From: Paenibacillus sp. FSL H8-0079
Lineage (GTDB): Bacteria > Bacillota > Bacilli > Paenibacillales > Paenibacillaceae
Assembly: GCF_037991315.1 (NCBI RefSeq)
Contig: NZ_CP150300.1
Coordinates: forward strand, 6,262,001-6,326,000
Reading direction: 5' to 3'
Length of the DNA: 64,000 bases
The notes under the pieces are model-generated. The model did no database searches, had not been told where the DNA came from, and saw only the letters and a list, made by a program, of their open reading frames with translations. Positions 5,103 to 37,663 of the stretch are shown here, one piece after another. The stretch's first letter is position 1. Each line of letters opens with the position of its first letter. The translations under genes were made by a program, and so were the position numbers.

Positions 5103-5150
5103 AAAAAAGCCGCTGCATACTTCTCCATAGCGGAGAGTACAACAACGGCT
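5103..5150 (-). terminator. Terminator after ribA
   Basis: On the minus strand AGCCG...CGGCT encloses TCTCC...GGAGA and is followed by six T. It lies between the ribA stop and the candidate glpP promoter. It could instead be part of a leader if transcription of glpP began inside ribA. Confidence 0.65.
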
Positions 5151-5182
5151 AATCAGCTAATCGTAACGTTTATAAATAATGA

Positions 5183-12742: not shown

Positions 12743-12967
12743 TTTAAACAAGAACGTAGAGGGCAGAAATAACCTGAAGAAGCGGAGCTAAAAGCTTTCT
12801 GGAAGAAAGCTACTTCGAAAGCATAAGCTTCGCCTAAAAGCTTTCTGCAAGAAAGCTGCATCGTAAGCATACGCTATCACCAGAATTTCACCTTTTAAAA
12901 GTGAATCGAAAATTCGGGGGATAACAGCGATCGGAAGGTTGTTCTGTCATCGAAGTGGTAAGGCTAA
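12743..12967 (+). repeat. Modular intergenic element, copy B (longest, diverged)
   Basis: It resembles copy A, but the AGCTTTCT...AGAAAGCT...CGNAAGCATA module is present twice in tandem before the second module (AGAATTTCACC...GGGGGATAACAGCGATCGGAAG). The outer ends are more diverged. It lies between the ArsR-type gene and the unrecognised gene at 13045 and points toward the latter. Confidence 0.65.
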
Positions 12968-21459: not shown

Positions 21460-21703
21460 TCTACGTGTTTAGAGCAAAAAAAAGTGATCCTGGTCACACA
21501 AAAGATAAAAATCAGCCTATTACCACAGCTTGCCAACTTCATGTATTCATGGAAGATACTCATGTTTGGGACGGAATGCCCATATGTTAGTCTCAGGCAT
21601 ATCATGCGAAGTGCCGTGAGGGCTTTACATATGAAGTGGAAGCATGAAGCACATGCAGAGAGAATGACGCACCATAATACAGTCAAGGTGAGGTGAAGCA
21701 TTC

Positions 21704-22996
21704 ATGAAAAATCCTGCGCCGTTACCGGATTCTGCTCCCGAAGTCAGCCCGAATGAGGTCAGTACAACACAGGCTCCTGTCCGGTATATTCTCTTTTCTC
21801 GCAAAGGAGGATGGTCATCCTTTCCCTATCCCGATATTGCTGCGCTGTTGTCGATCGAGGGAGAGGTCTATTATGTCAGCAGCCTGAAGCAGACAGAGGA
21901 TGTACCTGCGGCCATCACTGTCATCTCCCTCCCTGAAGCCGAACAACTACTGCTGGAACCTCGCACCGTAGCAGTGGTAACCCATCCTTACTGGCTCATG
22001 GCTACAGCTTCGCTGGAGCCAGAGCTATGTATCGTCCTGCTCCCTGAGCCAGCTGGAGATGAAGCAGCCTCTCCTTTATGGGAAAGCAGTATCTACAAAC
22101 TGGTCGGCATCGCCGATCTGGTGGGTACCTCCTCCGAAACACGATATATGAAGCTGCTTTTCCAAGGTGTACGCGCTATCTGGCTAGGAGGCGAAGACCC
22201 TACACCTGCGGGTACGATGCAAAAGGATGATCTCGAAGTCCCTCTCCGGGACTACGAACTGTTCTTCCTGCATGCCCTGCGGCAGATCCTGTCAGGAACG
22301 CTGGATAGCGTCACCCTGCTTCAATGCAGTGTACGTGCCGACTTCTACCGGCAGCTCCGAGCCAAAGCAGGTGCACATGAGACCATATCCTTTTTGCTGG
22401 CAGCCTATGAGTACTTGCTTGAAGATCCTCGGGCTATCAATTCACTGCAAGAGGCCTTCACCCACGCGGTCTTGAATGGTCGCAGTGACTGTGTAGTCTC
22501 CCACTATAGATTCCTGTCCGCAATCCATGCCCGGGCCGGACAGTTGGAGGACGCCCTGCTGGTGTACGGTATCAGTGCAGCCGACGAACAGGAACGCCAT
22601 CATTATGAACAGCTCTGTCGCTGGCTTGAAGCGGGAGAAGATCAACTTGTACGAGCGGAATTGCTGCGTATTAACGATGATTACGGAAACGCCTTGCGTA
22701 TCCTGGACGAACTTGGCGGAGAAACCGCGAGACATTGGAAATTCCGCATCTATCAGGAGACAGGACGTGTGGAAGAGGCACTGGCTCTGGTGCATGCAGT
22801 CGATATTCAGGATGATGCCAGTCGCCGGGATTATCAGCAATTATCCGGAAGTGCGCTGGCTCTGCGAGGGGAACGACACGGGGCAGTCCGACATTTTCTC
22901 GAAACGGCACTGGAGGATGAAGATGCGCTCGCCAGGATTGTCGAGCTGGAGCTGTTGGATCATGCTGTACAGCAATTGCTTGGGGAGGTGCCATGA
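21704..22996 (+). CDS. Protein of unknown function in a glycosyltransferase operon, TPR-like C-terminus
   Basis: A 430-aa cytoplasmic protein. The first ~200 residues look like a degenerate Rossmann domain (YILFSRKGGWSSFPYPDIAALL, then VAVVTHPYW), as in glycosyltransferase N-domains but without catalytic motifs. The C-terminal half is built of helix pairs with A-rich spacing (ARAGQLEDALLVYGI, DDYGNALRILDEL, QETGRVEEALALV), suggesting tetratricopeptide-like repeats. It is the first of four genes overlapping at start and stop codons (the next begins inside ATGATG at its end). It may be a scaffold or specificity subunit for the glycosyltransferases; that is inference. Confidence 0.7.
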   Translation: MKNPAPLPDSAPEVSPNEVSTTQAPVRYILFSRKGGWSSFPYPDIAALLSIEGEVYYVSSLKQTEDVPAAITVISLPEAEQLLLEPRTVAVVTHPYWLMATASLEPELCIVLLPEPAGDEAASPLWESSIYKLVGIADLVGTSSETRYMKLLFQGVRAIWLGGEDPTPAGTMQKDDLEVPLRDYELFFLHALRQILSGTLDSVTLLQCSVRADFYRQLRAKAGAHETISFLLAAYEYLLEDPRAINSLQEAFTHAVLNGRSDCVVSHYRFLSAIHARAGQLEDALLVYGISAADEQERHHYEQLCRWLEAGEDQLVRAELLRINDDYGNALRILDELGGETARHWKFRIYQETGRVEEALALVHAVDIQDDASRRDYQQLSGSALALRGERHGAVRHFLETALEDEDALARIVELELLDHAVQQLLGEVP

Positions 22997-23988
22997 TGCT
23001 GGACCCGAAGAAGCGTAGACAACAGGTGAATGGGCCGATGGTGCACAGGGATATCCGAACCGAAACCACTTACACGCCAACGGAAACAGTCGATCGGACA
23101 CATACAGACGCATTGGGAAATGGCGATCACACGCCGGATCATGCACAACCAACGCCGAGCACTCGAAGCCAAATTCATCACTGGGGCGACGTACAAGATC
23201 AGGGAGAACAGGATGCTGCTGTATCACAAGAGGAAACAAATGTATTCGAAGAGCCCTTCTCCATTCGTCGGGTTCGCAAAAGCAAAGGCAACAAGCTGAC
23301 CGCCATGCTCCAGGTTCGCAATGAACGTGGCCGATACCTTGAAGAGGTACTGCATGATCTGAGTGAATTCGTGGATGAGATCGTCATTGTGGACGATGCC
23401 AGCACAGATGGAACCCCGGACATATGCAAGGCCTATCCGAAGGTGGTCCGGCTGGAGGTATTGGAGAAACCACTGTTCGCCGAGGAATGGCGGCTTCGCA
23501 ACACCTTATGGCAAGCGGCTGCGGGAACACGTCCCGACTGGTTGCTCTCAGTTGATGCGGATGAGCTATACAGCTCAGAGGCCAAGAAAGCCATACGCAC
23601 TCTGATTAATCAGGAGTATGCGGACTGGTTTGCATTTCGTTTCTACGATATGTGGGGTGGCCGGACCCACTACCGGGAAGATGATCTCTGGTCTCTTCAC
23701 AAGCGGCATACGGCTTCACTTGTACGGTATATGCCTGGATATCCTTATTTTTATCCACAACAGAATCATCATGTTCCCCGTCTTCCCTTGTCCTGCACCG
23801 TATTGCCCGGGGTCAGCACGGAGCTGAAGGTTCAACATCTCGGTTGGGCCGGCAGCCTGGAGGACCGGGTTCGTAAATATTTGCGCTACAAACGTATTGA
23901 TCCTAGTGGTGAATGGGGCAATCTTGCACACTACGAGTCGATTCTCGATCCTGAACCTCGGCTGGTTCCTTGGAAGGAGGGACAGTGA
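22993..23988 (+). CDS. Family 2 glycosyltransferase
   Basis: Inverting GT-A enzyme that would transfer a sugar from a nucleotide-sugar donor. Of 331 aa, the first ~98 are polar and non-conserved; the GT2 domain starts at NKLTAMLQVRNERGRYLEEVL and has VIVDDASTDGT (133-141) and the metal-binding DADE at 188-191. The C-terminal half is rich in aromatic residues (YPYFYPQQNHH). Such Glyco_tranf_2-like proteins with LQVRNE starts are common in Paenibacillus surface glycosylation clusters. Its ATG overlaps the previous stop, so the pair is translationally coupled. Confidence 0.85.
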   Translation: MMLDPKKRRQQVNGPMVHRDIRTETTYTPTETVDRTHTDALGNGDHTPDHAQPTPSTRSQIHHWGDVQDQGEQDAAVSQEETNVFEEPFSIRRVRKSKGNKLTAMLQVRNERGRYLEEVLHDLSEFVDEIVIVDDASTDGTPDICKAYPKVVRLEVLEKPLFAEEWRLRNTLWQAAAGTRPDWLLSVDADELYSSEAKKAIRTLINQEYADWFAFRFYDMWGGRTHYREDDLWSLHKRHTASLVRYMPGYPYFYPQQNHHVPRLPLSCTVLPGVSTELKVQHLGWAGSLEDRVRKYLRYKRIDPSGEWGNLAHYESILDPEPRLVPWKEGQ

Positions 23989-23989
23989 A

Positions 23990-25459
23990 ATGGGCGTGGT
24001 GAGTATTCTGACGCATAGCTTTACCGATGGTTACAATCGGGAATTTGGCCGGGTATTTGGCGGTGGACTGGAGCGCTACATTTTGGATCTGTGCAGTGTC
24101 ATCCGTGGGCTCGGGCATATTCCCGAGGTTCATCAGCTCTCTTATTTTGAAGCGTTTCAGACGCGGACGGAGCAGATTGATGTATTTGGCTATGCGTATG
24201 ACATGAATGATGTGCCCGAAGCCTTTGACCGGATGGCAGCCGCGGCGCGCGGCCCCGTGATCTATGCCAGCTGTCTGTGGCAGCCCATCACCTACAAACC
24301 CGGCAGTCTTGGCATCTGTCATGGCATTAACTGGGATCGTCCCGGACTGCCACTGGATACCAAACAACAAGTAGCAGAACACATTCAGCTGGCTCTGGAT
24401 GGACTTGTGCGTATCGTGTCTGTGGATTCCCATTTCCAGACCTTTTGCCGGGCCGCGTGCACCTATACCGACCCAAGACAGGTTGTCCTGATTCCCAATG
24501 CAGTGGATACGTCCTATTTCACACCAGCCCCACCAACGCGGACCTTAGAGCAGGAACAGGAAGACGAATGGCTTGCTGCATGGAAGACTGATCTGGCGAG
24601 TCATGAGGAGAATCTTGGAGCGGTTATATCAGGCGTGAAAACTTTAAAAGGCAAGACTGGAACGAGTGGTGATGGAGAGGTGGATCCCCATTTCAATGTA
24701 TCGAAAATGGAAGAAATCGAGGTAGATGGCGAATCGTATAGGGTTGCTCGCAGCCACCGCAATTCAACGGATTGGGCTAACGATATTGTAATAGAAGCAG
24801 ATGCTCAATGTCAGGTTAATGGTCCAATTCAGGGACAGGTTGAAAAGAAAGCTGTGGATGCCCCTGCGTCCTCTCCCCGCCCAATTCGCATTATATATCC
24901 ACGCCGTATCAGCATGGAACGGGGCATTATTCCGATGATGCTGGCAGCAGATAAGCTATTGGGGGCCTTTCCGGATCTGGAGATTGAATTTGCCGGGGAA
25001 CTGGTCGAAGGCAGTACGGTGGGGAGAGCCTTTCGTTATTGGCATCGTACTCATCCACATGCAGCGAGAATTAACCAGCGCACGTATGATTTCCGGGATA
25101 TTCGGGAGGCGTACCATCAGGCAGATATCGCCGTAATTCCAACCGTGTTCTCAGAGGGTACCTCCTATGCCTGTCTGGAAGCGATGAGTTGTGGTCTTCC
25201 GGTGATTGCCTCCAATGTTGGCGGATTGAATGATCTGATTCAGGACGGGTTTAATGGGCTGCTCGTACCTCCTGGCGAGCAGGAACTCACCGCCGCACTG
25301 GTACGTCTCGTTCAGGACCGGGCCGAGCGAGAACGACTGGGAATCTATGCGCGCGAGACTGCACTGTCCTATGATCTTGCCAGGTGGCGGAGCCGGTGGA
25401 GCACGGTGTTGGAATCTTTTTTGGCAGAGACAGGATTGAAGGAGGGAATTCGGGGATGA
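23990..25459 (+). CDS. Family 4 glycosyltransferase with a central insertion
   Basis: Retaining GT-B glycosyltransferase, 489 aa. The N-domain begins VSILTHSFTDGYNREFGRVFGGGLERYI, where GGG marks the acceptor loop; the C-domain has IRIIYPRRISMERG (donor binding) and the EX7E motif SEGTSYACLEAM followed by GLPVIASNVGGL. About 115 residues between the domains (roughly 183-300) are low-complexity and charged, longer than in typical GT4 enzymes. The ATG at 23990 has GGAGGG; the longer reading from 23897 overlaps the preceding GT2 gene. Confidence 0.88.
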   Translation: MGVVSILTHSFTDGYNREFGRVFGGGLERYILDLCSVIRGLGHIPEVHQLSYFEAFQTRTEQIDVFGYAYDMNDVPEAFDRMAAAARGPVIYASCLWQPITYKPGSLGICHGINWDRPGLPLDTKQQVAEHIQLALDGLVRIVSVDSHFQTFCRAACTYTDPRQVVLIPNAVDTSYFTPAPPTRTLEQEQEDEWLAAWKTDLASHEENLGAVISGVKTLKGKTGTSGDGEVDPHFNVSKMEEIEVDGESYRVARSHRNSTDWANDIVIEADAQCQVNGPIQGQVEKKAVDAPASSPRPIRIIYPRRISMERGIIPMMLAADKLLGAFPDLEIEFAGELVEGSTVGRAFRYWHRTHPHAARINQRTYDFRDIREAYHQADIAVIPTVFSEGTSYACLEAMSCGLPVIASNVGGLNDLIQDGFNGLLVPPGEQELTAALVRLVQDRAERERLGIYARETALSYDLARWRSRWSTVLESFLAETGLKEGIRG

Positions 25460-26127
25460 TGGATACGCCCAAGACAACGGAATTCATGGAATCAAGATAC
25501 ATTCGGCAAAGTGACCCTAAAACGGACACACTGGTCTTCCCCCTGCATCCGGCATGGTGGAGCCGTCCATATGAATATGAATGGGCCCGGCGGTTTGCAC
25601 GTCCGGACGATGTGGTCCTTGATGCAGCCTGCGGCATCTCCCATCCGTTCAAATTCTGGCTTGCAGAGAACTGCCGCGAGGTTCACGCCTGCGACTGGGA
25701 TGAACGCATTTTGTCTGAAGAGGCGATCCGGCTGGATATTGTTTCTGACTTTGGCGAGCAAGCCGCCCAGGATCTGCCGGATTCGAGTCTCGTCCGATTG
25801 CACCGTGCACAGGCTAATCTGGCCCAACTTCCGTATGAGTCCGGCAAGTTCGACCGGGTGTTCTGTATCTCCGTATTGGAACATCTGGATACAGGCACAA
25901 TGCTGCGGGCTTTTCGTGAATTCGCCCGAGTGCTAAAGCCCAACGGACAGTTGATCGCTACCTTCGATGTGCCCGAGATGCGGCCGGATCTGCTAGAGAC
26001 GATCATGGCTGTCACCGGATTAACCATTGAAGATAAGCTGAATGTGGAAGAGCCGGATGATGCCATCTGGTCTGATATGTATGGCACGCCGATTCGCTGT
26101 TTTCGCGCAGTGATATGCAAAGGTTGA
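25456..26127 (+). CDS. Class I SAM-dependent methyltransferase
   Basis: A 223-aa methyltransferase with motif I VVLDAACGISHPFKFW, motif II VHACDWDERIL, an LAQLPYESGKFDRVFCISVLEHL motif and post-motif REFARVLKPNGQLIATFD. The start overlaps the GT4 stop in ATGA form with GGAGGG upstream, so it completes the four-gene operon. It may methylate a sugar residue to cap or modify the glycan made by the neighbouring enzymes, as SAM methyltransferases often do in glycan clusters; the acceptor is not shown by the sequence. Confidence 0.85.
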   Translation: MMDTPKTTEFMESRYIRQSDPKTDTLVFPLHPAWWSRPYEYEWARRFARPDDVVLDAACGISHPFKFWLAENCREVHACDWDERILSEEAIRLDIVSDFGEQAAQDLPDSSLVRLHRAQANLAQLPYESGKFDRVFCISVLEHLDTGTMLRAFREFARVLKPNGQLIATFDVPEMRPDLLETIMAVTGLTIEDKLNVEEPDDAIWSDMYGTPIRCFRAVICKG

Positions 26128-26142
26128 GGGATCGAGCTATTG

Positions 26143-26202
26143 GCAACGGAACCATGCACGGCTCGGGAAATAATCCGATTACCGGCTGCTCCGTTGCTTT
26201 TG
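26143..26202 (+). terminator. Branched terminator after the methyltransferase gene
   Basis: GCAACGGA (26143-26150) pairs with TCCGTTGC (26190-26197), with an inner CGGCTCGG/CCGATTACCG stem, followed by TTTTGC. It probably ends the plus-strand glycosyltransferase operon. Confidence 0.55.
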
Positions 26203-26251
26203 CACTTTCAATCGGAGATCAATTGAGAAACAGATCGGGATTGGGGGTTGG

Positions 26252-26322
26252 GGACTAGAGACTAAAAATCAGAGGTTAGAGACTAGAGATTAAAGATTAA
26301 AGATTAAAGATTAAAGATTAAA
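26252..26322. repeat. Heptamer tandem repeat
   Basis: Five perfect copies of GATTAAA (26288-26322) preceded by degenerate copies (GACTAGA, GACTAAA, GGTTAGA, GACTAGA). It lies in the short gap between two convergent glycosyltransferase operons, 7 bp from the end of the minus-strand gene. Confidence 0.85.
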
Positions 26323-26328
26323 GAAAAA

Positions 26329-28371
26329 TTATAGGTGTACCAGTAACATGTTGCACTGGTTGGTGTACTCTTTGGCAGTGGCTGCGCCGGGTGCTGTCAG
26401 GCGCAGCAGGGTTTGCAGGCCCGGCGAGATTGCAGTCGCCGGGCGACCTGAGGCGGCAGGTTGCCGCGCAGTGAGTTGGGCCGATTCGGCCCATTCACGC
26501 GCCAGGTTCTGCCGCCCGGCGAGCAACGCGAGCGTGCCCGCAAGGAGCGCGTGAGCGGTGCGCTCCGGGGCGGGCACTTCGTCCGCGAGGGGCTGCTGCG
26601 CGCCGTCAGGCGTGCCGCATAGCGCCAGCAGCCCTTCGCGGACGCTCGCGGGTGCGCGCAGCAACCCGCAGCGTGCCGCAGGCGGAAGCGCTGCGAGCAA
26701 CGCCAGCGCGCCGCGGGGCGGCAGGGCTTGCAGCAGGCGCAGCCATGCGGCCCAGGCGCCTACGCCGGCAAGCGCTTGCGCAGCGGCGAGCAGGCCAGGC
26801 GAAGACGCGGCCAGGACGCCGGGCGTTGCTCCGCGGGGCGGGCTGCCGCTGCTGCGCGCCGAGGCGTTGCTGCGGGCCGGGGCCCCGCGCTGAAGCAACG
26901 CCTCGGCGGCGTGGGCCGCGGCGGGCAGCGCTGCCGCATGGCGAGCCGCCGGGCGGGCGTTGCGCCCGCCCGGCGGCTTGCGGCCCAGCGCCCACAGCGC
27001 CAGCGCCGCCTCTGGCCCGTGCTGCGCATGCGCCGCCCAGGGCTGCAAAGCCGCCCGAGCCGCGGCGTCTTCGCCCAGCTGGGCCAGCGCAAGCCCGGCG
27101 CCCAGCGGCTGTGCCCGCAGTGGGGCAACAAGTGCTGCCGCATGGCGTAGCAGCCACTCCGGCCGATGCGCAGCCAACGCAGCCGCGATCAGCGCTTGCC
27201 ATGCCGCAGGCGGCAAGCTTCCCCGGGCGGCTGCGCTGGCGATGGCTTGCGGCCGCCCGGTGGTTGCGGCTAGCAACAACAGCCGCTGCCATGCAGGCAA
27301 GCTGCTTGGTTGCATGCCCAGTGCCGCCGTGTACGCGGCTTCTGCCTCCGCCCAGCGGCCAGCTCGCTCATGTGCCATGCCTTCCAGTGTCAGGCTGCGA
27401 TAGGTTCCAGCACCAGAGACCGACGTATATCGGTTGGCTGTGGAAGCAGCGGATCTAGCCCGTTTTAACCAGTCCAAAGCCACATCCTCGCTCCCTTGAT
27501 CCAGCTCCAGTACAGCACCAAGCTCCAACAAATCCGGAAAATCCTCATACACGGGCGCCCATGCTTCCACCACAGCAAGCGCCCGTTCTGGACTGCCAAT
27601 TTCTCGCCAGGCGTAAGCCGCTTTCAGCACCAGATCCGAGTGATATCCACACTCCGGCATAAGTTGTGCCAATAATGGCTGCAACAACCGGAGTGCTTCA
27701 TCATACTTCGCTTGCTGAAACCACTCGGCAGCCAGAGCATATAACAACTCCGGTTGGTCGCCCTCCTGATTCAACGCGGAGCGAATCAATTGCATATTCC
27801 GTGCACCTTTATTTTTGTCGACGATTGTCTGCTCCAGATATCCATAATGAATGACCTCAAGTCCAGAATGAAGCACACCTTGCGAAGCCAGTGCCATAAT
27901 GGATGAAGCGATCTCTTCATGAATTCTGCCCTGAAAGGCAATTCGAGGATCATTTCGGAACAAACGACACACCGCATCTGTCACACGCTCTTCACCAGAC
28001 ACACCCAGCAGACTCGTGACCTGTATCCAGTAACCCCACACATCATCCCTGCTCTCAGCTAACAAATGCATAAGCTCTGCCTTCATCTGTGGGGTCTGTA
28101 CCCATACTTCATCCGCATCGAGCACCAGAATCCACGGATTCGTAGCAGCAGCCAGTGACAGATTACGGGCTTCACTGAAGTCTCCGTTCCATTCTGTGCG
28201 AATTACAATGGCACCATGGCGGCGGGCTATTTCAATTGTATCGTCTTCCGATCCTGTATCCACGATGATGATCTCATCTACGATATCCCTGACTGCATTC
28301 AGGCACCGCTGGAGTGGCCCGGCTTCATCCTTCACGATCATGCACAAGCTAATCCCTGTGCTCACATTCAT
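26329..28371 (-). CDS. GT2 glycosyltransferase with helical-repeat C-terminus; GC-rich insert
   Basis: A 680-aa protein. Residues 1-~200 are a GT2 domain of the SPBc2/SunS-like kind: ISLCMIVKDEAGPLQRCL, IIIVDTGSEDDT, EWNGDFSEARNLSL, and the DXD motif VLDADEVW. Helical TPR-like repeats follow (ALLQPLLA, ERALAVVEAWA). From about residue 336 to 664 the protein becomes extremely Ala/Arg/Pro-rich, encoded by DNA of roughly 75-87% GC, before returning to normal for the last ~15 residues. The ATG at 28371 has AAGGGTGG in front; GTG 28377 or 28365 are alternatives. It belongs to a run of three related minus-strand genes. Confidence 0.82.
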   Translation of the reverse strand: MNVSTGISLCMIVKDEAGPLQRCLNAVRDIVDEIIIVDTGSEDDTIEIARRHGAIVIRTEWNGDFSEARNLSLAAATNPWILVLDADEVWVQTPQMKAELMHLLAESRDDVWGYWIQVTSLLGVSGEERVTDAVCRLFRNDPRIAFQGRIHEEIASSIMALASQGVLHSGLEVIHYGYLEQTIVDKNKGARNMQLIRSALNQEGDQPELLYALAAEWFQQAKYDEALRLLQPLLAQLMPECGYHSDLVLKAAYAWREIGSPERALAVVEAWAPVYEDFPDLLELGAVLELDQGSEDVALDWLKRARSAASTANRYTSVSGAGTYRSLTLEGMAHERAGRWAEAEAAYTAALGMQPSSLPAWQRLLLLAATTGRPQAIASAAARGSLPPAAWQALIAAALAAHRPEWLLRHAAALVAPLRAQPLGAGLALAQLGEDAAARAALQPWAAHAQHGPEAALALWALGRKPPGGRNARPAARHAAALPAAAHAAEALLQRGAPARSNASARSSGSPPRGATPGVLAASSPGLLAAAQALAGVGAWAAWLRLLQALPPRGALALLAALPPAARCGLLRAPASVREGLLALCGTPDGAQQPLADEVPAPERTAHALLAGTLALLAGRQNLAREWAESAQLTARQPAASGRPATAISPGLQTLLRLTAPGAATAKEYTNQCNMLLVHL
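26380..27365 (-). other. Block of very high GC inside a glycosyltransferase gene
   Basis: Hand counts give 49 of 60 G+C for 26881-26940 and 52 of 60 for 26941-27000, against 33 of 60 for 28141-28200 in the same gene. The block stays open in the gene's frame throughout and is Ala-rich. Its edges are sharp on both sides, and codon use inside (GCG, GCC, GGC, CGC) differs from all other genes in the window. Confidence 0.85.
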
Positions 28372-28464
28372 CACCACCCTTAACCAACGGAGTTCAGTCC
28401 CATCCAGTACGCATCTGTATTACCTTTAGCTCCTGCACCTACCTTATACCACTTAGCTCTCGAA

Positions 28465-30417
28465 TTAGTTCTCGAACCCATCCGCCCCTGGCAGTTCAAG
28501 CCGAATATGCTGAACGACAGGCCAACAACGGTGTCGATTTCCATTCGTATGTTGGGCGAACACCTCCAGATGATGATCCGCAGCACTAACCAATCCCTTC
28601 ACCAGCCAACTAGTTCCCGCGAGGGAATCCGAAGCCCCAGGGAATGACTCCATTCCATTCTCATTCAAGTTCTCTTTCTCTCCCACTCGAACGCTCTCCC
28701 CAACAGATAAATCATCTCCAGCTAATTGCTGTCGACACATCTGAATCAAGCTATGCAGCTCCTTCCAACGTCCTGACTGCACACATCCTTCCATCATCAG
28801 TCCGAGCGCCTGCCAGCCATCATACTCTGCTCCTGCAACCGTTCCGTCCATGCTAGCGTCCGTGTCCTTCTTTGTTGTCGCTCGCAGACCAACCGTTCGC
28901 CATGTCTGCACAGCAGATTCCTCATCATTGGTTACTACTGCACTTACCTGAGAACTACGCTTCAACCACAACGTCAAAGGATCGTCTCCGCTGACTTCCT
29001 TCCCTTCGAGCCATTCCAACCGTTCGAGCCATCGTGCAGACGAGATCGCGAGCAGCCTTTTTTTCCGCTGCACAGGTTCCAATTTCAGACGCGCCTTATT
29101 CCATCTCCCCTGTTGGATTTGGAGCATCGCCTCCGCCACAGATAAACGCTCCCTCATCTCTCCGGAAGGCTGTGAGGAAATCTCCGGTAACAATTGCAGA
29201 GCCGCTTCATAACAACGACTTTGCTCCAGAATGCCCAATACTTTGTGTGTAGCCTCTTCTGATCCGAGCGCAAAACGCTCCGTCACCAGCTCTGGAATCT
29301 GATGTTCCTGCCCGGAGACTCGCATCATCCGGAATATCCGATAGAGCGGAGGTAACAGACTGGATTTGGCACGCACCGCTTCCACGTAAGCATCCACCGC
29401 ACCCTCCAGATCGGCCCTTCCTTCCAGCAATCGCCCTAGCGTATACCACGTCTGATAGGTGCCGATGCCTTCTTCCGTATGATATATGGGTGGAGGTGGC
29501 CCCATGCGAACCGCTTCACGCAGTGACAATTCTGCCCGATCTGCATCGCCCAATGCATCTGCACATACTCCGCGATGATGCATCAGATCCGTGTACTCTG
29601 GAAAGAGTTCAAGCGCAGCATCGATTCGATCCAATGCCTCCTGCCAGCGATTCAGTTGCTGTAGACAACGAACTTCATATTTGAACAGCAAATGTGCGTA
29701 ACTGGTCACCGCTGGATCGATCCCCATCCGAGCCACAGCAAACGTCTCCAAGGCCCGCTCTGCTTCCCCCACACGCAGATATTCTACGCCCAGATTATAG
29801 TGATGGAATGGCTGACCCGGTTCTTCCTCCACTGCCTGTTGCAGCAGGCGGACATTGCGGTTCACCTTATCTTTGCGCTCCACAATCGCCGTCTGATATC
29901 CATAATGATGGATGACCATGTCCGTCACATGAAAAGCAGCCTCTGGATTCCCACGACAGATCGCCGCCGCAATCTGCTCATGAATTCGCCCTTCAAATCG
30001 ATGCTCCGGGGCATTACGAAAGAGACGCAAAACCGGATTCACGGTAACCCCCTGCTGACCCGTACCTGTATAGTTATGAATGTTTAAAAACAATCCGTCA
30101 CATCCGCTGACCGCCGTCCAGCTCCTGATCTGCTCCCTCGCAGCCCTATCGAGCGCCTCGTCCGCATCAAGAAAGAGAATCCAGTCGCCGGAAGCACGCT
30201 CCAGGCCAGCATTCCGTGCTGCGGCAAAATCATCGCACCACTCAAACGCCACAACCACCGCGCCATATTGCTGCGCAATCTCCGCGCTGCGGTCCGACGA
30301 ACCGGTGTCCACGACAATTACCTCGTCCACCGCTCCCTGGACACTGGCAAGACAATGGGGCAGTAACTCTTCCTCATCCTTCACGATCATGCATAGGGAA
30401 ATTCGTTCCGCTCGCAA
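28465..30417 (-). CDS. GT2 glycosyltransferase with TPR-like repeats
   Basis: A 650-aa paralogue of the flanking genes. The GT2 domain comprises ISLCMIVKDEEELLPHCL, VIVVDTGSSDRS, EWCDDFAAARNAGLE and LFLDADEALD, followed by a recognisable PVLRLFRNAPEHRFEGRIHEQI segment and a TPR region with PFHHYNLGVEYLRVGEAERALETF. A TTG at 30417 has AGGAGG at 7-nt spacing and is preferred to the ATG at 30441, which lacks a site. Its start lies inside the end of the upstream paralogue, so the two are coupled. It likely adds a sugar to a protein or carrier in the cytoplasm. Confidence 0.85.
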   Translation of the reverse strand: MRAERISLCMIVKDEEELLPHCLASVQGAVDEVIVVDTGSSDRSAEIAQQYGAVVVAFEWCDDFAAARNAGLERASGDWILFLDADEALDRAAREQIRSWTAVSGCDGLFLNIHNYTGTGQQGVTVNPVLRLFRNAPEHRFEGRIHEQIAAAICRGNPEAAFHVTDMVIHHYGYQTAIVERKDKVNRNVRLLQQAVEEEPGQPFHHYNLGVEYLRVGEAERALETFAVARMGIDPAVTSYAHLLFKYEVRCLQQLNRWQEALDRIDAALELFPEYTDLMHHRGVCADALGDADRAELSLREAVRMGPPPPIYHTEEGIGTYQTWYTLGRLLEGRADLEGAVDAYVEAVRAKSSLLPPLYRIFRMMRVSGQEHQIPELVTERFALGSEEATHKVLGILEQSRCYEAALQLLPEISSQPSGEMRERLSVAEAMLQIQQGRWNKARLKLEPVQRKKRLLAISSARWLERLEWLEGKEVSGDDPLTLWLKRSSQVSAVVTNDEESAVQTWRTVGLRATTKKDTDASMDGTVAGAEYDGWQALGLMMEGCVQSGRWKELHSLIQMCRQQLAGDDLSVGESVRVGEKENLNENGMESFPGASDSLAGTSWLVKGLVSAADHHLEVFAQHTNGNRHRCWPVVQHIRLELPGADGFEN

Positions 30418-32656
30418 GCTGATTCCTCCTTTCCTTCGCATGGAAAATCGTGCGCCATGGGATACCTTCGGCCGTCCGCAGCCTTTGTTCCAGTGCAGCA
30501 TGTTGTGCCGCGAGTGCCCCTGCCGACGGGGAGCGAACCAACTCCTGTCGAAGTGCCTCCATTGCTATCCGCAAGTAACATACTGCTGCACCAGCTCTGG
30601 CCTGTTGCAGATCAGGTTCCCGCTCCAGAGCCTGCTCGAACAGAGACAGCGCCTGATCATAATATCCTTTGGCAGACAGCGTTTCACCCAGCCAGAATAA
30701 CCCTTCGGCATCCAGATCACTCTCGGTCATGCACTGAATCAGGATGTTCGCGGCTACCATGGTATACCCGTGACGATACAGCAGACTTGCAAACTCCCGC
30801 CGGACCGTGACTGCCTTTCCCCGATGCTCACGCATCATGATTGCCCGCAGTTCATGCAGGTGCTCAGCAAGCGTAAGATGTCCAGTCTTTACGGCCTGCT
30901 GTACAACCTTTTCTGCCACCATCTGTGCCTGCGGACCCCACTCCATAAGCTTCTGCTCTTCTGACGCAGGTTCCATGCTTCGCGGCTCTTTGGTCAACTG
31001 GTCCAGCAGACGATCCATGACCTTCCAAACCGTCTTTTCTTGTGGATGGGTAGATGCGAGGAATATATCGGTTAATCGTAATCCATTAGCCCAATAAGCC
31101 AGTGCCCAATCCATTCTGTGCTCAGTTGGCAGATTGGCTTCATGTACACACCCAACGTTCCAGTGTTCTTCTGCCAGTTGTAATGCCTCCGAAACCTTAT
31201 TCGCACACAACATCCAATGTATTCGATCCGCTACATGGATACGGGTAATACGAGCATCTGTATCCAGCATTTTCAATGCCTGCCCATATGCTCCGCAGCC
31301 TGCGAGAACATGAATGACTTGTGCAAAATGATCCTCATTCTTCACGGCGTATGGATGGGGTGTTTCACCATGAATCGTGTCGCCGTGATCTGACTCTTCG
31401 ATCCCTCTGCATCTGGCGAGCAATGTTTCTGCTATGTTCTCATCTGTTTCTCCGGATTGTTGCAGTACATCCGCTAACCCCACCCATGCCGGAGCATATG
31501 CAAACATGCTGTCCAATGCCAGCCCGTACAGATGTGCGGACTCATTCAGGAATCCACGTTTCTGGGCAAGTCTTGCCATCGCGGTATAGACTCTGTAACT
31601 GTCAGAACCGGCTTCCGTTACATATGGCGAATCTAACGTGCTACCACCATCACTTTGTCCATCACTGTCTGGCACCCCCAGGCACTCGGTCGCTCGGGCA
31701 TAGGATTGATATGCACGCTCCTCCAAACCTTGCTGCTCCAACGTCTCCCCATACAATAGGTGCAGATCAGCATAAGATGGGTAACGATGCCTTTCCACAG
31801 CCAGAAGTGCATGCGCCTCTTCATATCGTTCCAATCCCACAAGGATCTTCGCATAATCTCTAACCAGTGTAGGACGATAAGGCGCGCGCAACTCTGTCAG
31901 GCGCAATGATACACTAAACGCTTCAGTTGCCTGTTCAATCTGACCAAGTTGGCAATAGGTCACTCCGAGATTGTACAGATGAAACGGCTGTGCAGGATTA
32001 TCTGCGAGTTCCCGTTCAATCAACTTCAAATTACGTCTTGGTTTATGTTCCTTCACAATCGTGGAGGCCAGATACCCATCATGAATGAGACATAGTGGAG
32101 CCAGCGGTTCAGTCTCGATCAATACGTTTTCTTCGTCTGTATAGTTCTCGTTCTTATCCCTATCAGCAGGCTCAATCAAGACAAGCTTGCTCGGGCCGCT
32201 ACGAACCAACTGCTCATGGATGCGTCCCACATATCGATATCCTTGATTAGCACGGAACAGTCTCACCGGTTGGGAGATCATCTTCTCTTCGGCCCCTTCA
32301 CCGTATCGATTCTCTATAGTAATGCGTAATCTTGAAATGCTTTTATGGACTTTAGGCAAATAGTTCAGTAGTTCTTCCAACCCCTGTGTGACGTACTCAT
32401 CCGCATCCAGACATAGGACCCATTCGGTGCCAGCCAAAGGCAAACTGATATTCCGCGCATGGGCAAAATCATCCTCCCAGCGGGCATGCAACACCGTTGC
32501 TCCGTATGTTCTTGCAATCTCGGTTGTGCGGTCAGACGAGCCCGTATCGGTGATAAAGCACTCCGTGCCGATATGCATCAAGCTGTCGAGACAGCGGGGC
32601 AGATGATGTTCTTCATTTTGCACAATCATATGGATTCCAAGTAAACGGTTCTGCAA
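30374..32656 (-). CDS. GT2 glycosyltransferase with long TPR-like region
   Basis: A 760-aa paralogue and first gene of the minus-strand glycosyltransferase run. The GT2 domain has LLGIHMIVQNEEHHLPRC, CFITDTGSSDRT, RWEDDFAHARNISL and CLDADEYV, and the FRANQGYRYVGRIHEQL segment. TPR-like units follow, including PFHLYNLGVTYCQLGQIEQATEAF and GYYDQALSLFEQALEREP. The frame is open to 32785, but the TTG at 32656 has GGAGG at 9-nt spacing and yields the homologue N-terminus. A terminator hairpin 30 bp upstream separates it from the repeat-protein gene, so expression may depend on readthrough. Confidence 0.85.
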   Translation of the reverse strand: MQNRLLGIHMIVQNEEHHLPRCLDSLMHIGTECFITDTGSSDRTTEIARTYGATVLHARWEDDFAHARNISLPLAGTEWVLCLDADEYVTQGLEELLNYLPKVHKSISRLRITIENRYGEGAEEKMISQPVRLFRANQGYRYVGRIHEQLVRSGPSKLVLIEPADRDKNENYTDEENVLIETEPLAPLCLIHDGYLASTIVKEHKPRRNLKLIERELADNPAQPFHLYNLGVTYCQLGQIEQATEAFSVSLRLTELRAPYRPTLVRDYAKILVGLERYEEAHALLAVERHRYPSYADLHLLYGETLEQQGLEERAYQSYARATECLGVPDSDGQSDGGSTLDSPYVTEAGSDSYRVYTAMARLAQKRGFLNESAHLYGLALDSMFAYAPAWVGLADVLQQSGETDENIAETLLARCRGIEESDHGDTIHGETPHPYAVKNEDHFAQVIHVLAGCGAYGQALKMLDTDARITRIHVADRIHWMLCANKVSEALQLAEEHWNVGCVHEANLPTEHRMDWALAYWANGLRLTDIFLASTHPQEKTVWKVMDRLLDQLTKEPRSMEPASEEQKLMEWGPQAQMVAEKVVQQAVKTGHLTLAEHLHELRAIMMREHRGKAVTVRREFASLLYRHGYTMVAANILIQCMTESDLDAEGLFWLGETLSAKGYYDQALSLFEQALEREPDLQQARAGAAVCYLRIAMEALRQELVRSPSAGALAAQHAALEQRLRTAEGIPWRTIFHAKERRNQLASGTNFPMHDREG

Positions 32657-32675
32657 ACATAACCACCTCCAATAC

Positions 32676-32715
32676 AAAAAAAGTACATGAAGTCCACCAA
32701 AGGAACTCCATGTAC
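32676..32715 (-). terminator. Terminator or attenuator between the repeat protein and glycosyltransferases
   Basis: On the minus strand GTACATGGAGTTCC pairs with GGACTTCATGTAC and is followed by seven T. It ends about 10 nt before the Shine-Dalgarno of the next gene, so partial readthrough could set the ratio of glycosyltransferase to structural protein. Confidence 0.75.
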
Positions 32716-32735
32716 CTATATGACAAATGAATGGG

Positions 32736-34244
32736 TTATGTGCCTTGTCCATTGAAGAACACATCAATCGTACTTGGTGCACCAACTAGGCTGGAGCGGT
32801 AGGATAGACGTGTATATTTGAGAAAACGCTGCGGAACCAATACATCCACTGACCCGGACAAAATGCCTGTTACTGTCGTCACATCCGTGTACCAGTTCGA
32901 ACCGTTTGCACTGATCTCAACACGAGCATCTACCCGGTTTACACCAGGTCCCCTGTTATATACAAAGAAAGAATACGTACCAAATACACTGGTTGTCACT
33001 GCTGGAAGCGGTGTAAAGGTGTTAGCCGTCGGGGTGCTAATGAGTTGGTTTTCCTGAAAACTCTTCTGTGATATGGACGTCACGCTGCTAAGCGTTCCCG
33101 CCGTAATTGTAGCGCCGAGCACACTGGTGATTGTCCCGTTCAACAGGTTCGTCAGGGTGCCGGCTGTGATCGTTGCTCCAAGCACACTCGTGATCGTACC
33201 ATTCAGCAGGTTTGTCAGCGTCCCCGCTGTCACCGTTGCGCCGAGCACGCTGGTGATCGTTCCGTTTAATAAGTTCGTTAGGGTTCCGGCTGTAATCGTT
33301 GCTCCAAGTACACTCGTAATCGTACCATTCAGCAAATTCGTCAACGTACCCGCTGTTACCGTTGCACCGAGCACACTGGTGATCGTTCCGTTTAATAAGT
33401 TCGTCAGGGTGCCTGCGGTGATGGTTGCTCCTAGTACGCTCGTGATCGTACCTGCGGTAATCGTTGCTCCGAGTATACCTGTGATGGTCCCCGCTGTGAT
33501 GGTCGCTCCAAGTACGCTGGTGATGGTTCCGGCCGTGATTGTTGCTCCCAATACACTTGTGATCGTACCATTCAGCAAGTTCGTCAGTGTCCCCGCCGTT
33601 ACTGTAGCTCCGAGCACACTAGTGATGGTTCCAGCTGTGATCGTTGCTCCCAATACACTCGTAATCGTACCATTCAGCAAGTTGGTCAGCGTTCCCGCCG
33701 TTACCGTAGCTCCGAGCACACTGGTAATCGTTCCGGCTGTAATCGTCGCCCCAAGTACACTTGTGATCGTACCATTCAGTAAGTTCGTCAATGTTCCTGC
33801 AGTCACCGTGGCTCCAAGCACACTCGTGATGGTACCATTCAGCAAGTTCGTGAGTGTTCCTGCTGTTACCGTTGCCCCGAGTACACTTGTAATCGTTCCG
33901 GCCGTGATCGTCGCACCCAATACACTTGTGATCGTACCATTCAGCAAGTTCGTCAAGGTACCTGCGGTAACGGTGGCTCCAAGCACACTGTTGATCGTAC
34001 CTGCCGTGATGGTCGCTCCAAGTACACTTGTAATTGTGCCGTTCAGAATGTTCGTAATGGTTCCGGCATTAATCGTAACGGTGGTCAGACCAGAGATGTT
34101 ACTGATGGTTCCGTCCAAAATGATGCCAACCACGTTCCCGCTCGTATCGGTTCTGACGGGCTGGGCTGTGCCTGTACTATCCTGGCCGAAAATCAATGTC
34201 CTCAGATTATCCGGATTCGTATTAAACGTTGTAAAGTTAGGCAT
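32736..34244 (-). CDS. Thr-rich tandem-repeat structural protein
   Basis: A 502-aa protein in three parts. Residues 1-60 form a head (MPNFTTFNTNPDNLRTLIFG); 61-~385 carry about 18 copies of a TSVLGATITA-type unit and 11 of a GTLTNLLN-type unit, alternating as 13- or 21-residue periods; the last ~110 residues form a beta-rich domain (TYSFFVYNRGPGVNRVDARVEIS, VPQRFLKYTRLSYRS) also found in the neighbouring gene. There is no signal peptide, TM segment or LPXTG. The hydrophobic and Thr spacing suggests a beta-solenoid with surface threonines suited to O-glycosylation. GGGAGG precedes the ATG. It is probably a surface or spore-coat filament; that is inference. Confidence 0.75.
   Translation of the reverse strand: MPNFTTFNTNPDNLRTLIFGQDSTGTAQPVRTDTSGNVVGIILDGTISNISGLTTVTINAGTITNILNGTITSVLGATITAGTINSVLGATVTAGTLTNLLNGTITSVLGATITAGTITSVLGATVTAGTLTNLLNGTITSVLGATVTAGTLTNLLNGTITSVLGATITAGTITSVLGATVTAGTLTNLLNGTITSVLGATITAGTITSVLGATVTAGTLTNLLNGTITSVLGATITAGTITSVLGATITAGTITGILGATITAGTITSVLGATITAGTLTNLLNGTITSVLGATVTAGTLTNLLNGTITSVLGATITAGTLTNLLNGTITSVLGATVTAGTLTNLLNGTITSVLGATITAGTLTNLLNGTITSVLGATITAGTLSSVTSISQKSFQENQLISTPTANTFTPLPAVTTSVFGTYSFFVYNRGPGVNRVDARVEISANGSNWYTDVTTVTGILSGSVDVLVPQRFLKYTRLSYRSSLVGAPSTIDVFFNGQGT
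33095..34064 (-). repeat. In-frame tandem repeat array coding for the Thr-rich rod
   Basis: Repeats of about 39 and 63 nt, imperfect at the DNA level (third positions vary) but nearly invariant in protein. The region is prone to slippage and to assembly collapse. It is coding repeat, not a CRISPR array: there are no unique spacers. Confidence 0.85.
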
Positions 34245-34289
34245 GTGCCTCGTCCTCCTCCCTGGTCAAATCTGTGAAATTTTACTCCC

Positions 34290-34787
34290 TTACGGCATAC
34301 GCTGCGCCTGAAAGTAAACATCAAGCCGGGTCGGCTGATCCGGTTCAACAGATCGAATTGCAAGCCGGGTATAATGCAAAAATCGCAAGGGTACCAGCGC
34401 TTTGGTCTGACCTCCCGCGACCACCTCCTGGCTGTCCACAGCATAGTCCACGGCATTGGGACTGATCTGGATCTGTACAAGAGCCGGATGTTTGCCCCGA
34501 TTCACAACGCCATAGGTATACATGCTGAGTGATGAGGTGTCTTGTGCCGGGAGTGAGTGTATGCTGCTACTGGTCTCGGCTCCGACATACGTATGCTCTG
34601 TAAAACAATGAATAGCACCAGGGAGTTTCGTACGTGAGGAAGCACCCTGCTTGAACCGGGGACGAGTGATCCGGGAACAAGGGGGTTTCAGCAATTTAGC
34701 GCGGCAGGAATGACGGGAGCGACGACGGCTAACATATTTAGTTGGTTGCTTCGTTCTCTTCTTGCTTCGCTTCGCTGTTCGACTCAT
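34290..34787 (-). CDS. Small protein with basic N-terminus and the C-terminal domain of the repeat protein
   Basis: A 165-aa protein. The first ~60 residues are strongly basic (KRSKKRTKQPTKYVSRRRSR) with three cysteines; residues ~75-165 align with the last ~100 residues of the adjacent repeat protein (VNRGKHPALVQIQISPNAVDY against VYNRGPGVNRVDARVEISANG; VPLRFLHYTRLAIRS against VPQRFLKYTRLSYRS). AAGGGG precedes the ATG at 8 nt. It sits 45 bp upstream of the repeat gene, in the same operon. It may be an assembly or anchoring partner sharing a multimerisation domain. No function is assigned. Confidence 0.7.
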   Translation of the reverse strand: MSRTAKRSKKRTKQPTKYVSRRRSRHSCRAKLLKPPCSRITRPRFKQGASSRTKLPGAIHCFTEHTYVGAETSSSIHSLPAQDTSSLSMYTYGVVNRGKHPALVQIQISPNAVDYAVDSQEVVAGGQTKALVPLRFLHYTRLAIRSVEPDQPTRLDVYFQAQRMP

Positions 34788-34908
34788 CTCGATTTCCCCT
34801 TAAAAAATGTGCTTACGCATCGTATGCCCGGATTGGAAATACGGGCACGGCAACCGCCTTTATTTCCAGATATACGGCTCAGTTCCCAATCCATTTTTCT
34901 TCTTTTCA

Positions 34909-34916
34909 CATACACT
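34909..34916 (+). promoter_or_regulatory. SigE-like -10 element
   Basis: CATACACT matches the mother-cell SigE -10 consensus CATACANT exactly, 71 bp upstream of the gene at 34987. The -35 region (around AATCCATT, 14 nt upstream) is a poor match. On the opposite strand, CATACGAT lies ahead of the 34787 gene. Suggestive only. Confidence 0.25.
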
Positions 34917-34986
34917 GCAAGTACAATGACATGCGAATTAACCGGAGTGTTGCTCTAAAAGAACTGGTCTACGGGAGGTGGATGCG

Positions 34987-35520
34987 ATGACGAACTACAA
35001 TGTATTTAATCAATCCAATGGTCCCCTGTTTACTCAACTGACCAATACCTTCTCGGCACCTGGAATTGAAGCTTCACCAGACAGCGGTGCTGCTGCTGCC
35101 GGAAGTTTCTTTGCCCTAACGACGAACAATACCGCAATTCCTGCCAGCCAAAATCTTCTTCTACAGATCCTGAATGGAGCCGGTAGTGGCAGAACTTTAC
35201 GCATATCCAGCCTCACTGGAGGCACAACAGCAGCAGCTACGCTTGTCATCTATTCTGGAGGAACGGTGACTGGTGGCAGCTCGCCTGTACCCGTCAATAC
35301 GCTACTTGGAAATACCAACGTCAGTGTAGTCACAACGAGGCAAAGCACGGGTACTCTTGGGGGAACCTTCACGAGCATCGCAAGTATTCCGCTTACCGCA
35401 GGTATGTATTCACTGAATTTGAACGGCTCGATTATTGTTCCACCGGGACAAACTTTATCCATTAGTGTAGGTACAGGGAGTCAGACGGGAGCCATTAACC
35501 TGTTCTGGTGGGAATTCTGA
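34987..35520 (+). CDS. Small beta-rich structural protein, NVFN...WWEF paralogue 1
   Basis: A 177-aa protein that I do not recognise by name. It starts MTNYNVFNQSNGPLFTQLTNTFSAPGIE, is rich in Ser, Thr, Gly and Asn, and ends GAINLFWWEF. There is no signal peptide, membrane segment or cysteine. The pattern of short strands and turns (GAGSGRTLRISSLTGGTT; VPPGQTLSISVGTG) suggests a jelly-roll or coat-type fold. GGGAGG lies 8 nt before ATG 34987; the earlier GTG is too close. The next gene is a paralogue. It is transcribed divergently from the repeat-protein operon. Confidence 0.7.
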   Translation: MTNYNVFNQSNGPLFTQLTNTFSAPGIEASPDSGAAAAGSFFALTTNNTAIPASQNLLLQILNGAGSGRTLRISSLTGGTTAAATLVIYSGGTVTGGSSPVPVNTLLGNTNVSVVTTRQSTGTLGGTFTSIASIPLTAGMYSLNLNGSIIVPPGQTLSISVGTGSQTGAINLFWWEF

Positions 35521-35550
35521 GTTGGATCATAGTAGAAGAAGGTGGTGTAT

Positions 35551-36135
35551 ACAGTGCCAAACAATAATGTATTCAACCCGTTAAGCCAGCCCGTCTATAC
35601 GTCAAATACCAACACATATACCTCTCCCGGCATTGTTGCCCCACCGGAGAACGATGCCGGCAACACAGGCAATCTGTACAATGCAGGTTCCACCAACTCC
35701 ACAACACTGGGATTGCTGGGAGGAACGGTAATCGCCACCGTACAATTGGCCAATCCAGCGGGGAGTGGAAAAACCCTATACGTATCACGGATCTCTGGCG
35801 GAATTACAGTCTCACTCAACCTTTTATCTTCCTTCAGCGGTTCCATGAGTCTGACCGCAAATGGAACGCTGTCCTCTCCCAGTACACTTACGCCGGTGAA
35901 CAGCAATCTTTCCAGCAGCAATACCAGTGTAGCCGTAGTACGATTCTCTGCTGCCGTGCCTTCGGGTGCGACTTCATTGATGGCGATGCCCCTTCAAGCA
36001 GGGCCCTTTCTATCCAATGAATTCGGCCGTTATGTGGTTCCTGCGGGTCAGGCCATTAACCTGTCTGTCGGCGGATCACTCTCGGTTGGTGGACTGATGG
36101 CCTCCACTGCCTATTTCGCCTGGTGGGAAGTGTGA
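35551..36135 (+). CDS. Small beta-rich structural protein, NVFN...WWEV paralogue 2
   Basis: A 194-aa paralogue of the preceding gene. The two share the head (PNNNVFNPLSQPVYTSNTNT with SPGI), the GSGKTLYVSRISGG strand region, a VPAGQAINLSVGG strand near the end, and the terminal AWWEV. The start is a GTG at 35551 with AAGGTGG 8 nt upstream, chosen over GTG 35542. It lies 30 bp after paralogue 1 and is likely co-expressed. The ending with paired tryptophans is the most constant feature. Probably a self-assembling surface protein; no function is demonstrated. Confidence 0.7.
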   Translation, partial: TVPNNNVFNPLSQPVYTSNTNTYTSPGIVAPPENDAGNTGNLYNAGSTNSTTLGLLGGTVIATVQLANPAGSGKTLYVSRISGGITVSLNLLSSFSGSMSLTANGTLSSPSTLTPVNSNLSSSNTSVAVVRFSAAVPSGATSLMAMPLQAGPFLSNEFGRYVVPAGQAINLSVGGSLSVGGLMASTAYFAWWEV

Positions 36136-37594: not shown

Positions 37595-37611
37595 ACATGT
37601 ACTCCCTCCCT

Positions 37612-37655
37612 TGATTACAGCCGTTTACGGTCTGCATGTTCCTTGGCTGTAATCA
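37612..37655. promoter_or_regulatory. Perfect inverted repeat upstream of the MFS gene
   Basis: TGATTACAGCC (37612-37622) and GGCTGTAATCA (37645-37655) are perfectly complementary across 22 nt. No U-run follows on the minus strand, so it is less likely a terminator than an operator or leader hairpin. It begins 18 bp upstream of the MFS ATG. Confidence 0.55.
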
Positions 37656-37663
37656 TAAGGGCG

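Follow-up and report, generated by a model that had tools for sequence, protein, structure and literature searches.

A window of 64,000 nucleotides in the 6.7-Mb single-contig genome of Paenibacillus sp. FSL H8-0079 (bases 6262001-6326000) contains a cluster of eleven genes, here called A to K, that probably specifies a spore-surface glycoprotein system expressed in the mother cell. This reading, made from sequence, draws on gene content, co-occurrence and synteny across genomes, the family of the enzymes, an N-terminal leader shared by three structural proteins, elements resembling -10 boxes, a conserved hairpin and the absence of part of the cluster as a block from certain genomes. The cluster lies between cydABCD-like genes (an assignment read by eye) and a gene of the major facilitator superfamily (MFS; PF07690). 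On the plus strand, a left operon encodes, in order, a protein resembling tetratricopeptide repeat (TPR) proteins (A), a family 2 glycosyltransferase (GT2; B), a family 4 glycosyltransferase (GT4; C) and an S-adenosylmethionine (SAM) methyltransferase (D). On the minus strand, a right operon encodes, from 5' to 3', a small protein with a domain of unknown function, DUF6385 (I), a threonine-rich repeat protein with the same domain (H) and three GT2-TPR glycosyltransferases (G, F and E). Two small beta proteins, J and K, are encoded on the plus strand, divergently from I (Table 1).

The initial annotation of this DNA, in which every named gene was correctly placed, proposed that the structural proteins are glycosylated components of the surface or spore coat. 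That idea is favoured by co-occurrence, enzyme family and promoter elements and, weakly, by a tie to spore-formers; the accompanying idea that the left operon is part of a dedicated machinery is not. Two convergent operons were described: they do converge, but there are three transcription units because J and K are transcribed away from the repeat operon.

Conservation of the cluster in Paenibacillaceae

Homologues were counted in a sample of 245 Paenibacillaceae genomes, with a threshold of E 1e-30 for G, on which the co-occurrence table depends. DUF6385 scores above its cut-off in 79 genomes, J homologues are present in 74 and G homologues in 94. DUF6385 and J occur together in 74 genomes, DUF6385 alone in five, J alone in none and neither in 166; the corresponding numbers for DUF6385 and G are 78, one, 16 and 150. 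The expected co-occurrence of repeat and glycosyltransferase genes is therefore strong for the right block, with a GT2-TPR homologue in 78 and a beta protein in 74 of the 79 DUF6385 genomes, although p-values overstate the case because related genomes are not independent. Stretches of sequence were taken from 55 of the 79 genomes and from five empty ones (60 in all). Most of the 55 show the same gene order, down to 30-60% identity. The stretches of the g6 genomes contain I-H-G-F-E only, with J and K both still retained on contigs other than that of DUF6385 or, in G048, 677 kb away; several stretches end at contig ends.

Five genomes of the same genus (L053-L057) keep A-D intact without the block E-K: the three GT2-TPR enzymes are missing along with H-K, and DUF6385, J and G were not found anywhere in the five whole genomes. 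These genomes fall at five separate places in a tree of A and B, but five separate losses is an upper figure because the tree has no support values; three lineages are clear by sequence identity. L053 has lost E-K but for a 57-codon remnant of E (5149-5319), which points to deletion. Judged by gene order and by where it is present or missing, the right block E-K forms a single functional module.

The left operon behaves differently. Homologues of A are present in 68 of the 245 genomes; A and DUF6385 occur together in 59, DUF6385 alone in 20, A alone in nine and neither in 157. The description of all these enzymes as dedicated machinery is favoured for E, F and G with the structural proteins but not supported for the left operon, since A is missing from 20 of the 79 DUF6385 genomes and present in nine of the 166 others, and five genomes keep A-D alone. 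The right-hand enzymes track the structural proteins, and the left operon is a separable partner.

Distribution beyond the family

DUF6385 was found in 53 of 398 genomes sampled across the phylum. Stretches of 20 kb were taken from 20 of the 49 DUF6385 genomes outside Paenibacillaceae, and 14 of the 20 contain GT2-TPR genes. The 20 genomes have 47 GT2-TPR matches, of which 36, by a hand tally, are located in the DUF6385 stretches; these are matches rather than genes, and at least two pairs share one long open frame. The six stretches with DUF6385 and no GT2-TPR gene nearby are L113, L114, L115, L126, L128 and L129, some of which have a second DUF6385 gene alongside. The possibility that glycosyltransferase genes outside the family contain the DUF6385 domain themselves was rejected: the reference fragment L100 is itself a glycosyltransferase piece.

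In a scan of named loci, 117 DUF6385 stretches yielded 109 confirmed and 80 kept. All 80 have a glycosyltransferase of the E/F/G type within 10 kb of DUF6385, and 49 have J/K, which is missing from 31, some of them incomplete stretches. The 80 loci include Bacillus methanolicus PB1, Thalassobacillus pellis, Fictibacillus phosphorivorans, Sediminibacillus massiliensis, Alicyclobacillus tolerans and Hydrogenibacillus schlegelii; the nearest named DUF6385 matches are from Paenibacillus, including P. xylanexedens and P. amylolyticus. The chances seem about even that DUF6385 marks an ancient, widespread and undescribed class of spore-surface glycoprotein in Bacilli and far beyond within the phylum, in which a Thr-rich beta-solenoid that can expand replaces collagen as the stalk, the head is a jelly-roll, a private leader is common to the glycoprotein and its jelly-roll partners, and the GT2-TPR O-glycosyltransferases are its own set.

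Glycosyltransferases

Domain matches agree with the prior assignment of four GT2 proteins, one GT4 protein and a SAM methyltransferase, and with that of A as TPR-like, its TPR matches being below cut-off. By our reading, the first ~170 residues of A may be a decayed GT-B half. E, F and G match PF00535 with E values of 1e-19, 8e-21 and 8e-16, and all four GT2 proteins (B, E, F and G) have the DAD (DxD) motif. F and G have well-defined C-terminal TPRs (TPR_2 E 2e-11 and 1e-11), and those of E, although weaker, still pass their cut-off (TPR_3 E 1e-4). Among solved chains, E, F and G are most similar to GmaR and next to SunS-type glycosyltransferases; the cut-off of the SunS equivalog TIGR04195 is not reached (78.8, 78.3 and 68.2 bits versus 350). 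The C-terminal part of E (26500-27450) has 75% G+C versus 49.6% for the window, is Ala-rich and has long open frames on other strands.

The left operon, with its GT2, GT4 and methyltransferase, is much like a small set of glycan genes and is retained where H-K are missing, as might be expected if the glycosyltransferases made a spore or cell polysaccharide and left the neighbouring proteins unmodified, the structural proteins being only co-regulated. This explanation is very improbable: E, F and G vanish with H-K as one block, they combine TPR domains with relatives that glycosylate peptides and proteins, and neither a polymerase nor a flippase was recognised among the eleven genes.

Structural proteins and their shared leader

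H was described as Thr-rich with 18 repeats, and indeed 121 of its 502 residues are Thr and the motif LGAT[IV]TAGT occurs 18 times. Ser and Thr make up 31% of H, Cys is absent, and the repeat zone of 360 residues, with units of the form GTITSVL/GATITA/GTLTNLLN, has only two charged residues. Its open frames range from 339 to 556 amino acids (aa) within the genus, as expected of a repeat stalk. The C-terminal domain that H was said to share with the 165-aa protein I is DUF6385 (PF19912), with scores of 90.8 bits for H and 104.7 bits for I versus a Pfam gathering cut-off of 26.8; the genome has no other DUF6385 match. The repeat was modelled, with low confidence, as a beta-solenoid, and the second-best fold match of the model is a fragment of hyper-glycosylated TibA (4q1q); a profile search of solved chains with H gave no match. 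I opens with a strongly basic stretch of ~30 residues (34697-34787) that is unlike the start of H, J and K.

The small beta proteins J and K are paralogues, as previously suggested, with 35% identity. Pfam gave no name over cut-off to either, even at E 10, and neither a BclA family nor DUF4183 was matched; NCBIfam had no match for H, I, J or K at E up to 0.1, and a profile search of solved chains with J returned only two chance cyclophilin matches. Two J homologues bear the label 'BclA C-terminal' in their source, which was not confirmed.

The absence of a signal peptide is upheld for the structural proteins, in which a hydropathy scan (not a trained predictor) detected no hydrophobic N-terminal segment. 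Collagen-like GXY sequence is likewise absent: the repeat units differ from it and no collagen family was matched. The claim that there is no sorting motif is right about LPxTG, which was not found in a sequence scan of the structural proteins, but not quite right in that H, J and K have a common N-terminal motif, M-[PT]-N-x3-F-N (MPNFTTFN, MTNYNVFN and MPNNNVFN, respectively). H shares this leader with J and K even though its domain make-up is unlike theirs.

The corresponding DNA pattern has three matches in the whole genome, at the starts of H, J and K, and its reversed control has none; the leader is tested only by the absence of further matches in this genome and by other genomes. In 48 other DUF6385 genomes the pattern has 93 matches by hand count, of which 53 are at the starts of homologues (21 of H, 25 of J and seven of K), two are beside J in unchecked open reading frames (ORFs) and 38 are elsewhere. 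The last number (0.8 per genome) is the background rate, given 17 matches in 22 genomes without DUF6385; the reversed control has 28 matches in the 48 genomes. Among the distinct N-termini of loci L033-L092 and L150-L209, after removal of duplicates and with L130-L149 excluded, the broader motif MxNxxx[FY][NQ] begins 55 of 76 H homologues, 44 of 52 of J, 22 of 50 of K, 12 of 83 of I and none of 509 homologues of genes A-G; several misses among H, J, K and I are near-variants or ORFs whose start was not reached. The first 28 residues of J are modelled at predicted local distance difference test (pLDDT) values <50, and N6, F10, N11, P16, N23 and P28 are invariant across 19 sequences; a docking peptide might be expected to have such a conserved disordered start.

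Ena chains are among the middling fold matches of J and H. An unlikely alternative is that J and K, as jelly-rolls with a conserved disordered N-terminal arm, polymerise into an Ena-like fibre of an endospore appendage, with H as an anchor or tip stalk that has a jelly-roll head and sugars on the stalk, as F-Anchor and F-BclA are for F-ENA. Root mean square deviations (rmsd) exceed 7 in the Ena alignments, and viral capsids, GOLD domains and toxins with this common fold are interspersed among them; no Ena family of Pfam matches H, I, J or K, and DUF4183 has zero matches in the whole genome. Moreover, H, J and K lack Cys, whereas the Ena1B entry is titled as disulfide-linked pili, and J is missing from five of the 79 DUF6385 genomes and J/K from 31 of the 80 named loci, some of which are incomplete.

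Promoter-like elements and a conserved hairpin

Each of the three transcription units starts with an element of the form CATANNNTR that resembles the -10 boxes of mother-cell sigma factors, its letters having been loosened from the consensus. Conservation was assessed only at loci where the match begins near the gene start. The element is present upstream of J at 39 of 40 loci (about 4 expected), including 20 of 21 outside the genus, upstream of I at 17 of 17 same-genus loci and three of seven others, and in at least one copy upstream of A at 17 of 17 same-genus loci. The controls are near or below chance: two of 40 for K, none of 21 for the MFS gene, none of 21 for cydA and two of 22 for the regulator gene beside the MFS gene. 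A -35-like MAC at a spacing of N15-18 accompanies the element upstream of J at 22 of 40 loci (0.5 expected). Sigma-E and sigma-K promoters have a common -10 (PMC517825), and the SigK-dependent bclA promoter of B. thuringiensis is given as CAC-N16-CATATGTTA (PMC4750369). One of the two elements upstream of A, CATATGTTA, has the same letters as this bclA -10.

In a quite improbable alternative, H-K are vegetative surface-layer or secreted matrix proteins, glycosylated in the cytoplasm and exported by a leaderless route, with no tie to sporulation. In its favour, GmaR and SunS, relatives of E, F and G, act in vegetative cells, the spore location is deduced from sequence and the SpoIVA association is modest. 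Against it, CATANNNTR heads every unit but not the flanking or internal genes, the structural proteins have no signal peptide and no export gene was recognised among the eleven.

A terminator-like hairpin with a T-run lies between H and G. All 20 same-genus loci have it after H (2.2 in shuffles), their stem sequences varying, and outside the genus it is seen at just 11 of 34 loci (1.2 in shuffles). By comparison, hairpins were found after G at none of 20 same-genus loci and four of 35 others, after F at none of 20 and one of 35, and after I at three of 20 and five of 35. The conserved hairpin separates the structural genes from the enzyme genes. Sigma-70-like promoters and terminators as a class were discarded, being no more numerous than in shuffled sequence (10 versus 12.5 and 10 versus 11.5, respectively).

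Proposed mechanism and points against it

Under the favoured reading of a mother-cell spore-surface system, whether a nap or a fibre, we infer the following division of labour. The cytoplasmic enzymes E, F and G would O-glycosylate threonines of H, and perhaps also of I, J and K, either ahead of assembly or in the course of it, with the peptide GTITSVLGATITAG as a candidate acceptor sequence for E, F or G. H would be a three-part protein in which the N-terminal leader is followed by a stalk, a Thr-rich beta-solenoid that varies in length, and then by DUF6385 as the jelly-roll head, and J and K would be small jelly-roll proteins bearing the leader of H. Like the BclA leader in Bacillus, this leader may take the place of a signal peptide and direct attachment or assembly. 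The putative terminator after H may hold enzyme levels below those of the structural proteins H and I. A-D probably extend or methylate the glycan, but may serve other substrates too.

Several observations weigh against this interpretation. The genome G110 has DUF6385 with no glycosyltransferase over threshold, the five DUF6385 genomes without J break the association within the family, and six of the 20 stretches outside it lack GT2-TPR genes. SpoIVA is present in 51 of the 53 DUF6385 genomes versus 334 of 398 overall (p 0.008), but this link to spore-formers is weak because 84% of the phylum sample is SpoIVA-positive; the two DUF6385 genomes without SpoIVA are 75% and 80% complete, and absence in G476 was read from its not being among the positives. 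Because of close relatedness within the genus, a score of 17 of 17 does not amount to 17 independent cases, and beyond the genus the A element shows no conservation (four of 20, with 2.0 expected). The -35-like MAC is found at none of 24 loci for I and none of 37 for A, and the J promoter of the window itself has ATCC at the -35-like place. Recovery of the starts of H, J and K by the leader pattern is circular because the pattern was written from them, and its strict form fits just seven K starts across the 48 genomes. The solenoid model of H has low confidence (mean pLDDT 57.6).

Comparison with known systems

In C. difficile, SgtA has a GT domain and C-terminal TPRs and transfers beta-O-GlcNAc onto Thr of the collagen repeats of BclA3 (PMC7157674). 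The cluster may work by analogy with SgtA-BclA3, without collagen: in both, a GT-TPR gene adjoins the gene of a repetitive protein, on the spore surface in C. difficile (PMC7157674) and presumably so here. The likeness is one of domain plan. Whereas the C. difficile system has a single 358-aa enzyme and a collagen-like protein (PMC7157674), this cluster combines three enzymes (678, 682 and ~760 aa) with a repeat protein that has DUF6385 and no collagen, and adds a pair of jelly-roll proteins and a second operon of glycosyltransferases and a methyltransferase. The BclA/BxpB (ExsF) hairy nap of the B. cereus group offers another parallel, with a mother-cell protein, a short N-terminal leader, a repeat stalk, a jelly-roll head and a SigK promoter (PMC4750369, PMC11952670 and PMC10470788); here, there is no GXY collagen and no match to the BclA C-terminal or exosporium-leader families, and the leader is another. 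F-ENA with F-Anchor and F-BclA also consists of spore-surface parts with an N-terminal hook, a stalk and a beta head, and a putative glycosyltransferase gene lies near F-BclA in Bt (PMC11952670), but DUF4183 is absent from this genome and collagen from this cluster.

Among solved chains, GmaR of Listeria and the peptide glycosyltransferase SunS come closest to E, F and G in the GT-A part. Here, a different and repetitive protein is the presumed substrate, and the SunS equivalog scores are 68-79 bits against 350. TibC-TibA is a further parallel through 4q1q, a hyperglycosylated beta-helix among the fold matches of the H model. TibA is glycosylated by a cytoplasmic enzyme; it is an autotransporter of Gram-negative cells, and its enzyme belongs to an unrelated family.

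To our knowledge, the spore coat of Paenibacillus is little known compared with that of the B. cereus group. No paper naming DUF6385 was found in the literature searched, and no description recognised as this system was found in the literature searched on spores and Paenibacillus. New here are the leader common to H, J and K, CATANNNTR at three units, the conserved hairpin and the five genomes without the right block; the initial annotation had seen neither the motif, the elements and the hairpin nor the presence of the system far outside Paenibacillus. If the reading is true, DUF6385 with GT2-TPR would be a family-wide marker, a role would be suggested for this domain of unknown function, the leader would be a candidate for protein display on Paenibacillus spores, and the cluster would serve to examine how solenoid substrates are selected by TPR glycosyltransferases.

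Features of the locus

Likely starts of D, G, J and K were read from the sequence (Table 1). If island is taken to mean a mobile element, the term lacks support, and this reading was dropped: the same neighbours flank the cluster in most same-genus stretches examined. On the right these are the MFS gene and a Trans_reg_C regulator (36248-38842), which are kept in four of the five E-K-less genomes; the fifth retains a piece of the regulator. An Rfam scan of the window gave zero matches at gathering score. A tandem pair of 46-bp units lies at 12788-12875 of the window.

Table 1. Genes and sequence elements of the cluster, numbered from the first base of the window.
Feature	Position	Strand	Description and basis
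Two CATANNNTR elements (CATATGTTA, 21581-21589; CATATCATG, 21598-21606)	21581-21606	+	Upstream of operon A-D
A	21704-22996	+	TPR-like protein; TPR_19 E 0.0017, below cut-off
B	22993-23988	+	GT2 glycosyltransferase with DAD motif; PF00535 E 5e-12
C	23990-25459	+	GT4 glycosyltransferase; PF00534 E 1e-22
D	25456-26127	+	SAM methyltransferase; likely ATG start at 25456 overlaps stop of C; Methyltransf_11 E 1e-14
TTAAAGA heptamer array	26259-26324		Between stop codons of the two convergent operons
E	26329-28377	-	GT2-TPR glycosyltransferase; domain scan, GmaR E 8e-35
F	28465-30501	-	GT2-TPR glycosyltransferase; domain scan, GmaR E 4e-41
G	30374-32656	-	GT2-TPR glycosyltransferase; likely TTG start after GGAGGTGG site (listed ORF begins at 32785); GmaR E 4e-21
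Terminator-like hairpin with T-run	32681-32717	-	Between H and G; conservation and shuffles
H	32736-34244	-	Leader motif, Thr-rich repeat and DUF6385; sequence, domain scan, fold model
I	34290-34787	-	Small DUF6385 protein, basic N-terminus; domain scan, sequence
CATACGATG element	34818-34826	-	Upstream of I-H-G-F-E
CATACACTG element	34909-34917	+	Upstream of J-K
J	34987-35520	+	Beta protein 1, jelly-roll model, conserved disordered N-terminus; model, alignment, start reading
K	35554-36135	+	Beta protein 2, paralogue of J; leader-bearing GTG start at 35554 (listed ORF from 35542); sequence

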